Positions 2,134 to 8,131 of a stretch of 15,792 nucleotides of DNA are shown here, piece after piece. Each line of letters begins with the position of its first letter. Position 1 is the stretch's first letter. Made by a program: the position numbers and the translations under genes. The notes below the pieces were generated by a model. The model did no database searches. It saw only the letters and a list, made by a program, of their open reading frames with translations, and was not told the origin of the DNA. Origin of the DNA: Kiritimatiellia bacterium (GTDB lineage: Bacteria > Verrucomicrobiota > Kiritimatiellia > RFP12 > DVOR01); contig JAFYMU010000121.1 in assembly GCA_017548245.1 (NCBI GenBank), positions 1-15,792 on the forward strand, read 5' to 3'.

Positions 2134-2163
2134 CCGCGCTAACGAGCGCGGTTTTCATTTTTT
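2134..2163 (+). terminator. Rho-independent terminator (or attenuator) after folB
   Basis: The stem CCGCGCT (2134-2140) pairs with AGCGCGG (2145-2151) around an AACG loop, followed by a T-rich tract TTTTCATTTTTT (2152-2163). It lies 10 nt after the folB stop and just 5' of the ribosome site of the next gene. It therefore either ends the aroE operon or partly attenuates read-through into the MurU-AmgK gene. Confidence 0.75.
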
Positions 2164-2179: not shown

Positions 2180-3979
2180 ATGACGAAGCCGACAATTGCC
2201 TTTGTATTGGGCGCAGGGTTTGGTGAACGTTTACGTCCCATGACCCTTGCTACGCCGAAACCGTTGATGCCGATCTGGAACCGTCCCTTATTGGCGCACA
2301 CCTTGGACCAATTGGTGGCGTGGGGCGTGAAGACCGTCTACATCAACACCCACTGGTTGCCCGATTGCCTGCGTGCCTTTATGGCGGCGTATCAGGGGCC
2401 GTTGACGTTGCACGAACTCCACGAACCCGAGATTTTGGGAACCGGTGGCTGCCTCCGTGCTTTGAAGCCGCATGTGAAGGACGAACCCTTCTGGTTGGTG
2501 AATGGCGACATCGTCTTTAACTGTTCGCCCGAACCCCTGATGGAGGCCTTCGAACAGTCGGGCGCCTTTGCCGCCGCTTGGTTGGAACCCAAACGTGGCC
2601 CGCGCACCGTGGAAGTGGACTACGCAGGGCGCGTGACCTGTTGGGCCTCGCCGACCCCTGGCGTGGAGCACACCTATACCTTCACGGGCGTGAGTCTCTT
2701 GAGTGCGAAGGTGATTGACTTCTTGCCGCCAGAGAAGACGATGTGTTCGGTGGTGGACGCCTTTAATGCGGCAATGTATGCGGGCAATTTCGTTCGCGCG
2801 GCCGTTCAGAAGGAGGCGTATTGGAACGATGCGGGCACCTTGAAGGCCTACCTCCAAGTGCATAAGGATGTGAAGAAGATGCCTGCGTTGGCATCCTATG
2901 CCCAAGCGGCAGCAACGTTGCCAGCGCCTGAATTGGAGGCCGTGCTCAAGGCGTTGCGTTGGAACTTGGACGAGACCGTGGTGATTCCGTTGGGCCGTCG
3001 GGGAAGCCAACGCACCTTCTGGCGCCTCGTGGGCAATAAGCGTTCGGTCATCGCCATTGCGTATCAAACCGAAGGGCGCGTTGAAAATGCGCGCTATGCC
3101 GCCTGTGCAAATGGGTTGGCAAAGGCCGGTGTTGCGGTTCCCAAGGTCGTCTTGGACAAGCCCAACCTTATGGTGTTGGAAGACTTGGGTGACGACACCT
3201 TGGATCACTACGCCAAACAAATCCGCGAAGATTTAGAGGTCGCTCACGTCTGTTCCTGCGGCGAAGAGCACGAAACGTGTGACGACGAAGGCTGCGCTTG
3301 CGGTCACCACCACGACGATGAACCCTGTTCCTGCGGTGGCCATCACCACGATGAAGGGTGCACCTGCGGCCATCATCACGAACCCGAACACCCGATTTTG
3401 ACGAAGGTCATGACCCTTTTGGCCACCTTCCATCACGCAGATGTCGGTGATTTACCCCTTGAGCCCTCCTTTGATCAGGCGTTGTATGATTGGGAAGTCG
3501 GCCTGTACGAACAGTTTGTGGCGCCCTTCTCGCCAGAGGCTAAGGCAGAATTGCAAGGCCTCCAGCAGACCTTGTTGGCCGAACCCCTCGTGTTGGTCCA
3601 TCGCGACTTCCAGAGTTCCAACCTCTTGTGGAAGCAAGACGCGCCCTTTGTGATTGATTTCCAAGGTATGCGTCGTGGCGCGGCACTCTACGACTTGGCC
3701 TCCTTCCTCGCCGATCCCTATACCGATTGGGGCGAAGCTACGACGGAGGTGGCCTTGCGCGCCTATGCCAAGGCATCGGGACGCGCGGTGGAGGAACTCC
3801 AACGCAACCTGCCGTGCGCCATTGTTCAACGTTTGATTCAAGCGATTGGCGCCTTTCACCGTTTGGCCTCGGTGGGGCAACCGCGCTTCTTGGCCTATGT
3901 GCCAACGGCACGGGCACGCGCCGCTCAAGCCGCAGAAAGGTTGGGCTGCACCCACTTGGCGCAAGCCTTACGCGGTTAA
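2180..3979 (+). CDS. Fused MurU-like nucleotidyltransferase / AmgK-like sugar kinase with Cys/His-rich insertion
   Basis: The 599 aa protein joins two enzymes that in Pseudomonas are separate neighbours. AmgK phosphorylates N-acetylmuramate/N-acetylglucosamine at C1, and MurU turns MurNAc-1-P into UDP-MurNAc in peptidoglycan recycling. Residues 4-235 form the nucleotidyltransferase: GAGFGERLRP with TPKPLMP (11-31), metal Asp in VNGD (107-110) and WNDAGT (215-220). Residues 250-599 form an aminoglycoside-phosphotransferase-fold kinase: VLEDLGDD hinge (332-339), catalytic HRDFQSSN (474-481; H474, D476, N481) and metal-binding VIDFQG (491-496). Between hinge and catalytic loop lies a 47-residue stretch (358-404) with nine Cys, four CxC pairs and three HHH runs. 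The start is the ATG at 2180, with GAGGAG upstream. It appears to be a single-gene unit between two terminators. The fold calls are strong. The substrate (MurNAc or GlcNAc rather than another sugar-1-phosphate) is inferred from the domain pairing. Confidence 0.85.
   Translation: MTKPTIAFVLGAGFGERLRPMTLATPKPLMPIWNRPLLAHTLDQLVAWGVKTVYINTHWLPDCLRAFMAAYQGPLTLHELHEPEILGTGGCLRALKPHVKDEPFWLVNGDIVFNCSPEPLMEAFEQSGAFAAAWLEPKRGPRTVEVDYAGRVTCWASPTPGVEHTYTFTGVSLLSAKVIDFLPPEKTMCSVVDAFNAAMYAGNFVRAAVQKEAYWNDAGTLKAYLQVHKDVKKMPALASYAQAAATLPAPELEAVLKALRWNLDETVVIPLGRRGSQRTFWRLVGNKRSVIAIAYQTEGRVENARYAACANGLAKAGVAVPKVVLDKPNLMVLEDLGDDTLDHYAKQIREDLEVAHVCSCGEEHETCDDEGCACGHHHDDEPCSCGGHHHDEGCTCGHHHEPEHPILTKVMTLLATFHHADVGDLPLEPSFDQALYDWEVGLYEQFVAPFSPEAKAELQGLQQTLLAEPLVLVHRDFQSSNLLWKQDAPFVIDFQGMRRGAALYDLASFLADPYTDWGEATTEVALRAYAKASGRAVEELQRNLPCAIVQRLIQAIGAFHRLASVGQPRFLAYVPTARARAAQAAERLGCTHLAQALRG
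3293..3391 (+). repeat. 33-nt tandem repeat encoding Cys/His-rich 11-residue units
   Basis: Three in-frame 33-nt units encode CACGHHHDDEP, CSCGGHHHDEG and CTCGHHHEPEH (residues 372-404 of the fusion enzyme). A degenerate fourth unit lies just upstream (CSCGEEHETC, from 3251). The pattern is C-x-C-G-(G)-H-H-H followed by acidic residues. The repeat probably grew by duplication and the protein segment is likely to bind transition metals. Confidence 0.85.
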
Positions 3980-5723: not shown

Positions 5724-6578
5724 ACGGTAGAGCGGCTCCTAGAAGCAGGGGCCGCCTATCTTTGTCGTCATGGGATGGAAGCAGAGGAAGCGCAGAGTCA
5801 AGCGCGGATCTTGTTGTCGGAGGTGCTGAACTGTTCGCTCTCGGCGTTGACCTTGCAGGCTAAGCGCGTCCTCGAAGAGGCGCTGGTGCAACGCTTGCGC
5901 GAACAGTTTAAGCGCATTGCCTCGGGCGAACCCATTCAGTACGTCTTGGGGACGTGGCCCTTCCACAATATTACGTTGCGAACCGATGCGCGCGCCTTGA
6001 TTCCGCGTCCTGAGACGGAGGAATTGGTGGAACGCATCTTGCGCAGCGAGGTCTGGGCGCGTGCGGAGCATATTGCCGATATTGGCACGGGTACAGGCGC
6101 GATTATCTTGGCCTTGGCCCATGCGGCGCGTGGCACGAATCGACGTTTTACAGCGGTGGATCTCTCGGAGGCGGCGTTGAGTCTCGCCCAAGAGAATGCG
6201 CAAGCCTTGGGGTTGAGCGATGTGGTCACCTTTATCCATGGCAATGGAGCAGGGGTGCTGCCGGCGTGTTCGTGCGATATTTTGGTCTCCAATCCGCCCT
6301 ACATCGCAACGGCAGAGGTTAACCAATTGCCCTCGCACATCCTGGATCACGAACCGCGAATGGCGTTGGATGGCGGTGCGGATGGCTTGGATATCCTGCG
6401 TCAAATCATCTTGGATGGAACGCAAGTGCTCAAACCTTCGGGCCGTCTCTTCTTTGAGATTGGCGACGAACAAGGGCTCTCCATGCAGCGCTTGTTGGAA
6501 CGTGCGGGTTATGCGGATGTGGTGGTGGCGCGTGATTTCGCCGGCCATCACCGTTATGCCGAGGGTTCGCTTCTGTGA
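5721..6578 (+). CDS. prmC: Peptide chain release factor N5-glutamine methyltransferase PrmC (TTG start)
   Basis: PrmC (HemK) methylates the Gln of the GGQ motif in release factors RF1 and RF2, using S-adenosylmethionine. The 285 aa form has the N-terminal helical domain (about 1-75), the hallmark PRPETEELVE, the SAM loop ADIGTGTGAI, AVDLSEAAL, and the catalytic SNPPYI followed by HEPRMALDGGADGLDILR, all diagnostic for PrmC. I chose the TTG at 5721 because GAGGT at 5709-5713 lies 7 nt upstream and the resulting N-terminus (TVERLLEAGAAYL) is family-like. An in-frame ATG at 5691 would overlap the DUF3127 gene by 20 nt and lacks a ribosome site. The stop TGA overlaps the next gene's GTG start by 4 nt. 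Confidence 0.93.
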   Translation: MTVERLLEAGAAYLCRHGMEAEEAQSQARILLSEVLNCSLSALTLQAKRVLEEALVQRLREQFKRIASGEPIQYVLGTWPFHNITLRTDARALIPRPETEELVERILRSEVWARAEHIADIGTGTGAIILALAHAARGTNRRFTAVDLSEAALSLAQENAQALGLSDVVTFIHGNGAGVLPACSCDILVSNPPYIATAEVNQLPSHILDHEPRMALDGGADGLDILRQIILDGTQVLKPSGRLFFEIGDEQGLSMQRLLERAGYADVVVARDFAGHHRYAEGSLL

Positions 6579-8131
6579 AACGTAGGCCGCAGCCGTTGCC
6601 GAATGAACCGCGTTCGCGTCGCTTGCAAGCGCGGATCGCCCAACATTTGCCGTACTTACGGCAAACGCCACCGCCGCCCTGCCGTTACGACCATGTCACC
6701 TTACTGCTCTACTATTTCCCCCAAACCGTTGAGGCGCACACCTTTGACGCCTTTGAATTCGCTCTCCGCCAAACCTGGTCGGTCTTGGGGTGGTTGCGAA
6801 CGGTTGTCGTTACCCACGACGCTTCCGTGATTCCTGCCGCCTTTGCGCAGGCTTATCCCATCGAAATCCAAGTCGAACCCACACTCGTTCCTGGCGAGAT
6901 TCGTTCGATGAGTCGGGATTGCTTGGTGCGCTTGTACCAACGCTTTCAGACGTCACACGTGCTCATTGTGCAAGCCGATGGCTGGCCGTTGGAAGATCGT
7001 TTGGCCGCCTTCTTGAAGTATGACTATGTGGGCGCTCCAAATGTCACCCCCGGCTGGCGCGCACGGATTGCTGATGCGTTGGCCTTAACCGTCCTCAATG
7101 GTGGCTTCTCCTTGCGGTCCAAACGCCTCTGCCGTTTTGTCGCGCGTGTCTGCGGTTGCTTGCCCAAGACCTTTGCACCGAGTGAGGATCAGGTCTACGC
7201 GCGCTTTCGTTACCTCTTCCGTTTTCCCTCAGCGGCCATTGCTCGGCAGTTCAGTGAAGATGCGTTGGATGGCTTATTGCCGCCTGCACCAACGGCGCAG
7301 CCGATGGGGTTCCATCGCGCCTCGACCTTTGCTATGTTGAATCCCGAAGCGACTCCGTTAACGGTCGTGAGTGTGGTGCGGGATTGGGCGTGTTACGAAC
7401 GCTGTGTGCGGCAAAATCCTTACTTGCGAGGTGCGCGCTTTGTTACCTTTGATAACGCAGCCCAAAACATTCCAATTCCCGAACGCTACAACGCCTTTTT
7501 GGATGCAATGCCCGCTGATACGGGTTGGATTCTCTTCGCTCATGAAGATTTTGAAGTGCAAGAGGACCCGCGCCCGCTGTTGAATCGGCGTTCAACGCTC
7601 TTCCCGTGTGGTTTGATTGGCACGCGAACGATTCTGGATTCGGTGATCTTACCCTTTGGTGTGATTACGGATTCCGATCGCGATGGGGCGCGTTACCATG
7701 TGAATCGTCCGCCGTTACCCTATGTGGGCCTGTTGGGGGCGCGCGCTGAAAACTGTGATTGTTGCGGCTTCTTTGTCCATGCGGACACCTTCCGTTCGTG
7801 GCAATTACGCTTTGATCCGCGTTGCGAATGGGATCTGTATGCCGAAGATTTGTGCTTCCAATTTATCCAAACGAGCGGCCACACGGTCAGCATCTTGCCC
7901 CTAAAAGCTCATCACTGGTCACGCGGTAACCCCGCAACCGACCACTTTGCGGCAGCGTTGGCGCATCTCAATGCCAAGTATGCCGATGCCTTTTTCGCGG
8001 GCGGAACGTGTGTCTTCTCCATCGGCAGACGGCCCACATGGCGTTTGCGCCTCTTTCAATTTTGTGTTCACCATTTCTTTTTACGGTGGGTTTCGTTCCT
8101 GCAAGGCATCCGTAACAGGAGGGAAAGATAA
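6575..8131 (+). CDS. Two-domain protein: DUF5672 domain fused to a StrF-like (Glyco_tranf_2_5) glycosyltransferase domain
   Basis: The 518 aa protein has two halves. Residues about 40-230 fit DUF5672, a domain found in surface-polysaccharide loci: HVLIVQADGW (128-137), KYDYVGAP (148-155), LNGGFSLRSKRL (174-185) and SEDQVY (203-208). Residues about 262-470 fit the GT-A-like StrF/Glyco_tranf_2_5 type: VVSVVRDWACYERC, WILFAHEDFEV (318-328) in the place of a DxD-like metal site, a Cys-rich NCDCCGFFV (393-401), FDPRCEWDLYAEDLCFQ (413-429) and HHW (446-448). The tail is basic and hydrophobic (about 486-518) and may lie at the membrane. The GTG start overlaps prmC by 4 nt (GTGA). The TAA shares one base with the bioF ATG. 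A role in surface glycan assembly is inferred; donor and acceptor are unknown. Confidence 0.75.
   Translation: MKRRPQPLPNEPRSRRLQARIAQHLPYLRQTPPPPCRYDHVTLLLYYFPQTVEAHTFDAFEFALRQTWSVLGWLRTVVVTHDASVIPAAFAQAYPIEIQVEPTLVPGEIRSMSRDCLVRLYQRFQTSHVLIVQADGWPLEDRLAAFLKYDYVGAPNVTPGWRARIADALALTVLNGGFSLRSKRLCRFVARVCGCLPKTFAPSEDQVYARFRYLFRFPSAAIARQFSEDALDGLLPPAPTAQPMGFHRASTFAMLNPEATPLTVVSVVRDWACYERCVRQNPYLRGARFVTFDNAAQNIPIPERYNAFLDAMPADTGWILFAHEDFEVQEDPRPLLNRRSTLFPCGLIGTRTILDSVILPFGVITDSDRDGARYHVNRPPLPYVGLLGARAENCDCCGFFVHADTFRSWQLRFDPRCEWDLYAEDLCFQFIQTSGHTVSILPLKAHHWSRGNPATDHFAAALAHLNAKYADAFFAGGTCVFSIGRRPTWRLRLFQFCVHHFFLRWVSFLQGIRNRRER

Follow-up and report, generated by a model that had tools for sequence, protein, structure and literature searches.

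Cys/His-rich metal tracts are mainly known on metal chaperones, transporters and metal-delivery enzymes. Metallothioneins are CxC-rich metal traps that exist as free-standing small proteins. The tail of SlyD (E. coli, H. pylori) is acidic and His-rich, with scattered Cys. One study (PMC7055735) reports that H. pylori SlyD takes up 2.4 Ni(II) or 3.3 Zn(II) per protein through its Cys/His-rich tail, an appendage missing in some homologues.

The window (the whole stretch of DNA analysed here, 15,792 nt) encodes a sugar-kinase fusion protein, P0001, with a Cys/His-rich tract in its kinase half. Like the SlyD tail, this tract is acidic and His-rich, has a predicted capacity for several metal ions, and is an appendage absent from some homologues. 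SlyD, however, is an FKBP-type isomerase with a nickel-linked tail, whereas the tract of P0001 forms a loop within a sugar kinase, and its genus gives no match to NiFe-hydrogenase or cobW/HypB; Pfam finds no FKBP-type isomerase domain in P0001. The tract resembles those of HypB and further GTPases of the cobW (G3E) type in placing predicted metal ligands beside a nucleotide-binding domain, but no G3E GTPase domain is found in P0001 by Pfam, and cobW is matched in none of the 17 genus genomes. The tract shares its richness in CxC with metallothioneins, but is an insertion with more His than Cys, and no metallothionein is among the three Pfam matches of the protein. A Cu/Zn efflux permease of the SO_0444 type, present in the same genus, uses a common Cys/His vocabulary (read in nine genomes), but it is an unrelated membrane protein with a near-fixed loop, while the tract of P0001 is a variable repeat. 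Compared with MurU, a uridylyltransferase, and AmgK, a kinase that acts on MurNAc/GlcNAc at C1, P0001 has both halves in one chain, carries the insert, and scores far below the equivalog cut-offs. The chemistry of the tract is familiar from other systems; what is new, to our knowledge, is the protein that carries it and the natural series of copy numbers.

Searches of the literature gave nothing relevant among open-access papers, either on an insert of this kind or on His-rich repeats, and combining Kiritimatiellae with metallothionein in that literature gave nothing on such an insert. The words 'metal', 'zinc' and 'hinge' are absent from a paper on AmgK/MurU (PMC12346966). Another paper (PMC5371409), checked for AnmK and fusions, describes reporter fusions. 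Spyradenecus is named in two published papers, going by a literature listing.

The reading favoured here, to which we give about even weight, takes the tract for a functional appendage that chelates metal, was built from repeats and sits in a loop of the kinase half; it would serve mainly as a tethered Zn (or Cu) buffer or sink in the cytoplasm.

The fusion gene and its Cys/His-rich tract

The features of the gene and its surroundings are as follows.

2134..2151, +, hairpin resembling a terminator and having a T run, located between folB and the fusion gene (weak: three such sites in the region against 3.8 in shuffles)
2180..3979, +, nucleotidyltransferase / APH-type sugar kinase fusion gene, bifunctional, MurU/AmgK-like, 599 aa, P0001 (translation; PF00483, PF01636; NCBIfam MurU and AmgK below cut-off)
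2198..2875, +, nucleotidyltransferase domain, residues 7-232 (PF00483, E 7.7e-20; solved relative 4y7t)
3173..3196, +, VLEDLGDD, residues 332-339, presumed kinase hinge, so named in the first-pass annotation and from the kinase fold (translation; aligns to LLIEDLGD of 3csv_A)
3206..3403, +, insert zone, residues 343-408, 66 residues (9-25 residues in 66 proteins outside the clade described below)
3245..3277, +, degenerate unit 0, HVCSCGEEHET, then C-D-D (codons; register set by hand on CxC)
3251..3391, +, Cys/His tract, residues 358-404, 9 Cys and 11 His (translation, composition count)
3287..3319, +, repeat unit 1, EGCACGHHHDD (TRF; codons)
3320..3352, +, repeat unit 2, EPCSCGGHHHD (TRF; codons)
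3353..3385, +, repeat unit 3, EGCTCGHHHEP (TRF, array to 3369; codons)
3599..3622, +, catalytic loop HRDFQSSN, residues 474-481, intact (H474, R475, D476, Q478, S479 and N481 the same in all 62 proteins aligned)
3656..3667, +, DFQG, residues 493-496, intact, probable Mg2+ site, a role presumed from APH kinases (D493, Q495 and G496 the same in all 62 proteins aligned)

The residue numbers and coordinates of P0001 are exact given a start at ATG 2180, and a GAGGAG sits 9 nt ahead of this codon (by eye). An alternative, longer frame starting at GTG 2114 crosses the hairpin at 2134-2151. This weakly supported hairpin may give the kinase gene a separate transcript; no sigma-70-like site was found. 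The folB gene lies 5′ of the kinase gene in 7 of the 14 genus genomes carrying the latter (flanks of 1.5 kb), a neighbourhood that is uninformative on metal. Elsewhere in the window, positions 6575-8131 encode a 518-aa protein with DUF5672 (PF18922) at residues 119-247 and no further Pfam match.

Pfam assigns PF00483, PF01636 and PF12804 to P0001 and nothing else, with the best stretch of the APH-type kinase domain (PF01636) at residues 400-535 (58.4 bits, cut-off 23.2). The best curated match is MurU for the first half (NF045761, 90.3 bits) and AmgK for the kinase half (NF045759, 47.7 bits), far from the equivalog cut-offs of 250 and 550. The APH fold and the HRDxxxxN and DFQ motifs expected of AmgK are present. 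The name MurU-AmgK fusion, used in the first-pass annotation, is best taken as pointing to the nearest named families. The tie to cell-wall sugar recycling suggested there is unproven: both equivalogs are missed, and AnmK (PF03702), the one component of the Pseudomonas-type MurNAc recycling route that was searched for, was matched in 0/17 genus genomes and 5/14 control genomes.

The tract, CSCGEEHETCDDEGCACGHHHDDEPCSCGGHHHDEGCTCGHHHEPEH, contains four CxC and one lone Cys, and three HHH runs are found among its 11 His, so that a recount upheld the initial description of a Cys/His-rich, repeat-built stretch at this position. Its density of Cys and His exceeds that of the rest of P0001 (hypergeometric p 1.7e-13), a descriptive rather than a blind figure, the stretch having been picked for density. 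It is also the top 40-residue Cys+His stretch in the window, with 17 such residues against nine in the next (stop-to-stop frames of at least 60 residues). The 33-nt tandem repeat that had been proposed was recovered by TRF, which places 2.7 copies at 3282-3369 with 72% matches and without indels. An assembly error, which the first-pass annotation said would weaken the case, is unlikely because the frame is open, the units are just 72% alike, and the tract of a related protein from another record (P0002) is equally long and keeps all nine Cys.

Among the 56 solved chains listed as matching P0001 at E <=1e-6, the sole kinase is 3csv_A. In this alignment the insert falls after LLIEDLGD (the hinge) and before YRAAVDLLIHLHDA, ahead of the catalytic loop, and the translation agrees, confirming the placement between hinge and catalytic loop given in the first-pass annotation. 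On 3csv_A the insert is presumably flanked by a short helix and a long helix, as assumed from the fold. The tract itself had no match among solved structures, a weak test. Catalytic residues are unchanged throughout the 62-protein alignment, in insert-bearing and insert-free forms alike.

Occurrence and unit number among relatives

A protein search with P0001 gave 854 proteins at E <=0.001 among 7,995 scored candidates. The best 120 of the 854 were analysed and all of them aligned, the best 58 separately as well. In a tree that included ten outgroup proteins, the top 53 group together as a single clade, that of Candidatus Spyradenecus and its surroundings. Among the names that sources give are Candidatus Spyradenecus and Kiritimatiellia; in the NCBI taxonomy, Spyradenecus belongs to Lentisphaerota. 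The genome of the window falls in the same genus group as G009. Record titles show that part of the clade comes from gut samples, and the host bacterium is probably gut-dwelling.

The insert zone carries CxC in 36 of the 53 clade proteins; applying a looser rule to the remainder, five have a Cys/His-rich zone only, and 12/53 have neither. Beyond the clade, CxC was found in the insert zone of 0/82 loci and 0/66 proteins (from the best 120 of 854). Of 89 non-genus loci, 82 yielded a forward frame and were used, and the other seven were set aside. Some of the loci are copies of one species, and they come from a set made up of the best 80 of 552 confirmed loci and of loci from a genus-genome search. 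One 512-aa clade member (P0095) was excluded from both the 53 and the 66. The Cys/His insert is a lineage trait, restricted to the clade among the relatives examined. On these counts, the idea of a general feature of the enzyme family was rejected.

Three genus genomes, G001 (88% complete), G008 (93%) and G013 (77%), gave only weak partial matches to the fusion protein, and the whole gene seems absent from them. A search of a large protein set (948 candidates) with the insert zone alone recovered the query only; it missed even P0002, and is hence uninformative on relatives. Against the 17 genus genomes (E up to 10), the tract matched itself and gave six weak matches (E 0.023 to 0.52). The insert zone of one protein, P0031, spans 65 residues, of which one is Cys and none is His; this long insert lacks metal ligands and forms a natural contrast to the Cys/His forms.

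The number of CxC in the 53 clade proteins (overlaps included) is 0 in 17, 1 in 19, 2 in three, 3 in seven, 4 in six, and 6 in one. The commonest CxC-bearing form has a single CxC (19/36), in a zone with 2-4 Cys and 4-11 His. The length of the repeat unit depends on the species, being 11 residues in P0001 and 14 (GEEHTCDCGCDHDH) in G016. It had been suggested that repeat number may vary between strains. It does vary, from 1 to 6 CxC in the 36 proteins, the variation seen being between species.

When the insert columns are left out of tree building, the presence of CxC requires eight changes, six of these forced by well-supported branches, while a quick tree gives nine changes. The state of having at least three CxC requires six changes on the tree without insert columns, at least three of them forced by well-supported branches. 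An insert-free group (P0034, P0043, P0048, P0050 and P0051) is possibly the first branch of the clade, at a fork with weak support (59/87). One reading of the sequences is a single early gain of the insert followed by several losses, and the repeated expansion could be partly due to slippage. Judged from this distribution the insert is dispensable, because 17/53 proteins are without CxC, 12/53 are without a clear insert, and three genus genomes apparently lack the gene.

The commonness of the single-CxC form (19/36) would suit a structural or assembly site, at which Zn would hold the loop in place or link subunits, serving stability and not storage. Growth to 4-6 CxC is unexpected for such a site, however, as is the lack of a clear Cys/His insert in 12 of the 53 clade proteins, and we regard it as quite unlikely. 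A more exciting reading than a buffer is a metal gate, in which Zn or Cu binding would fold the loop at the mouth of the active site and turn the activity of the kinase (or of the coupled nucleotidyltransferase) up or down, making sugar activation dependent on metal level. This is consistent with the position of the insert between hinge and catalytic loop on the 3csv_A alignment, with the intact catalytic residues, and with the retention of ligand-type residues in the closest pairs (see below). A range of 0 to 6 CxC with at least six presence changes on the tree is, however, a poor fit to a fixed allosteric geometry, and insert-free relatives have the same catalytic residues, leaving a gate unlikely. 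We prefer the buffer to a precise allosteric gate in view of the wide variation in unit number, the dispensability of the insert, and the drift in the remainder of the loop.

Conservation of the ligand-type residues

The insert zones of the clade contain 8.0% Cys and 15.7% His, compared to 1.1% and 2.6% elsewhere in the proteins. Cys and His are dense and in the spacing of metal sites: in the 53 zones CxC occurs 76 times against 14.3 in composition-preserving shuffles, HxH 129 against 54.9, and CxCG[HD] 30 against 0.3, while CC (2 against 14.8 expected) and CxxC (2 against 14.1) are scarce. These motif counts include repeats and shared ancestry, and are better read as the description of a grammar than as a test of one.

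The cleanest conservation numbers come from P0001 and its nearest relative, P0002 (84% identical), together with the control outside the zone. Within the tract, Cys/His are kept at 20/20 positions (9/9 Cys, 11/11 His) and other residues at 8/27 (Fisher 4e-7). Over the whole 66-residue zone with flanks, 21/24 Cys/His columns and 18/41 others are kept. Outside the insert zone the figures are 15/20 for Cys/His and 451/513 for others, showing no Cys/His bias.

Close pairs of clade proteins gave a similar picture. With flat scoring, seven disjoint pairs of at least 80% core identity kept 62/75 Cys, 106/136 His and 294/527 other residues, and 14 pairs of at least 70% core identity kept 98/139, 160/262 and 510/1096; this residue-wise test (zones of at least 28 aa) was designed after a null result with 23 pairs and counts positions from both sides, making its p-values too small. 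The cruder 23-pair test, which scored any column with Cys/His in either sequence and took in pairs with the insert missing on one side, found no difference (155/272 against 321/607, p 0.27). Ligand-type residues are accordingly conserved beyond their surroundings in the closest pair and in the seven or 14 close pairs, and not significantly so in the cruder count. The four units of the window point weakly in the same direction at the codon level, in a register set by hand on CxC: Cys codons have no differences at positions 1-2 and four at position 3 (12 comparisons), and non-Cys codons have 29 and 32 (54 comparisons).

These results bear on whether the tract is a neutral expansion of a low-complexity repeat, the alternative that the first-pass annotation had set beside its own proposal. 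The 33-nt tandem duplication and variable size, the repeated gain and loss of CxC on the tree and the non-significant 23-pair test would all be expected of such an expansion. The retention of Cys/His (20/20 against 8/27 for other residues, with no such trend outside the zone), the rarity of CC and CxxC, and the chemistry shared by lineages whose units differ in length all speak against it, ligand-type residues being kept while their neighbours change and unit number varies, and we consider it very unlikely. On evidence mostly from close pairs, the tract looks like a metal site under purifying selection, which is hard to square with a neutral repeat.

The excess of CxC (76 against 14.3 expected) could also indicate a redox-sensitive thiol/zinc switch, in which oxidised CxC pairs would let the metal go, and the clade records with gut samples in their titles would suit this if anaerobic life is assumed. 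In the closest pair, however, His is kept like Cys (11/11 and 9/9), and P0015, P0020, G006 and G009 hold four His with one Cys, and we consider such a switch highly unlikely.

Metal context in the genus

Several markers of metal use were searched for in the 17 genus genomes and 14 control genomes. No match was found in the 17 for ZnuA (11/14 controls match), cobW/HypB (13/14) or NiFe-hydrogenase (5/14), absences that weigh less outside the nine genomes whose completeness reaches 90% or more and whose contamination is low; the window's own genome is 75% complete. A FUR-type regulator is present in 12/17. Nickel delivery is unlikely because neither NiFe-hydrogenase nor cobW/HypB has a match in the genus genomes. 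Storage or delivery of Ni, Zn or Cu had been put forward for the tract; the nickel part of this proposal is unlikely, and Zn or Cu is the better fit.

For the favoured reading of a tethered buffer, we infer from the sequences that the elementary unit, C-x-C-G-(H)-x-H, would offer about two thiolates and two imidazoles, and that one unit would hold about one four-coordinate ion, probably Zn(II) or Cu(I). Multiplication of the unit to at least three CxC in several lineages would give a greater capacity. The array would lie in a presumably surface-exposed loop of the kinase half, acting as a tethered sink or buffer for cytoplasmic Zn (or Cu), in the manner of the SlyD tail, and leaving the catalytic machinery intact.

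A bolder version, which we hold unlikely, is a metal rheostat, in which the number of units, altered by 11- to 14-residue duplications, would tune the response of sugar-nucleotide supply to cytosolic Zn or Cu. If true, this would be an evolvable metal-binding array inside a sugar-activating kinase, with a set point moved by unit duplication. Proteins that can otherwise be aligned carry anywhere from 0 to 6 CxC, and this natural series makes the scaling of capacity with unit number directly testable, and equally the coupling of a metabolic kinase to metal level via a simple repeat.

Within the genus, the exact CxCGHxH motif is particular to the fusion kinase. As a DNA pattern it gave 11 matches in the 17 genus genomes, of which six are in the fusion kinase (five genomes) and the other five in short frames or in frames overlapped by longer ones; a reversed control pattern gave six. 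A genome-wide habit of this exact motif was rejected, as the matches outside the kinase are at about the level of the reversed control.

Other His-rich tracts are present in the genus. A His-x-His pattern has many matches in all 17 genomes and, among the matches listed, 22 in the window's genome against four for the reversed control. Inspection of nine such stretches led to one exporter and one RND adaptor. The exporter is of the SO_0444 Cu/Zn type and is matched in 17/17 genus genomes, with scores of 249-289 bits in 16 (the cut-off is 300) and a partial match of 85.5 bits in one; after joining the pieces of second copies, two genomes pass the cut-off (303.1 and 301.8) and the other 15 stay under it. 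The same family matches in 8/14 control genomes, one of them above the cut-off. A loop of the form CACHHHD..HPH.....H.HEF is present in the nine genus genomes where it was read. Exporter loci are L150 (1306-2586, minus strand), L151, L157, L163, L164, L166, L167, L170 and L171. The exporter does not explain the insert because it is present with or without it; G002, for example, has the exporter and no insert.

The adaptor (L149, 1752-3104 on contig C23 of G016) is an RND/CzcB-like metal-efflux protein with two NCBIfam matches, both below their cut-offs. Its N-terminus contains about four His-rich repeats of 25 residues, another repeat-built metal tract in a relative.
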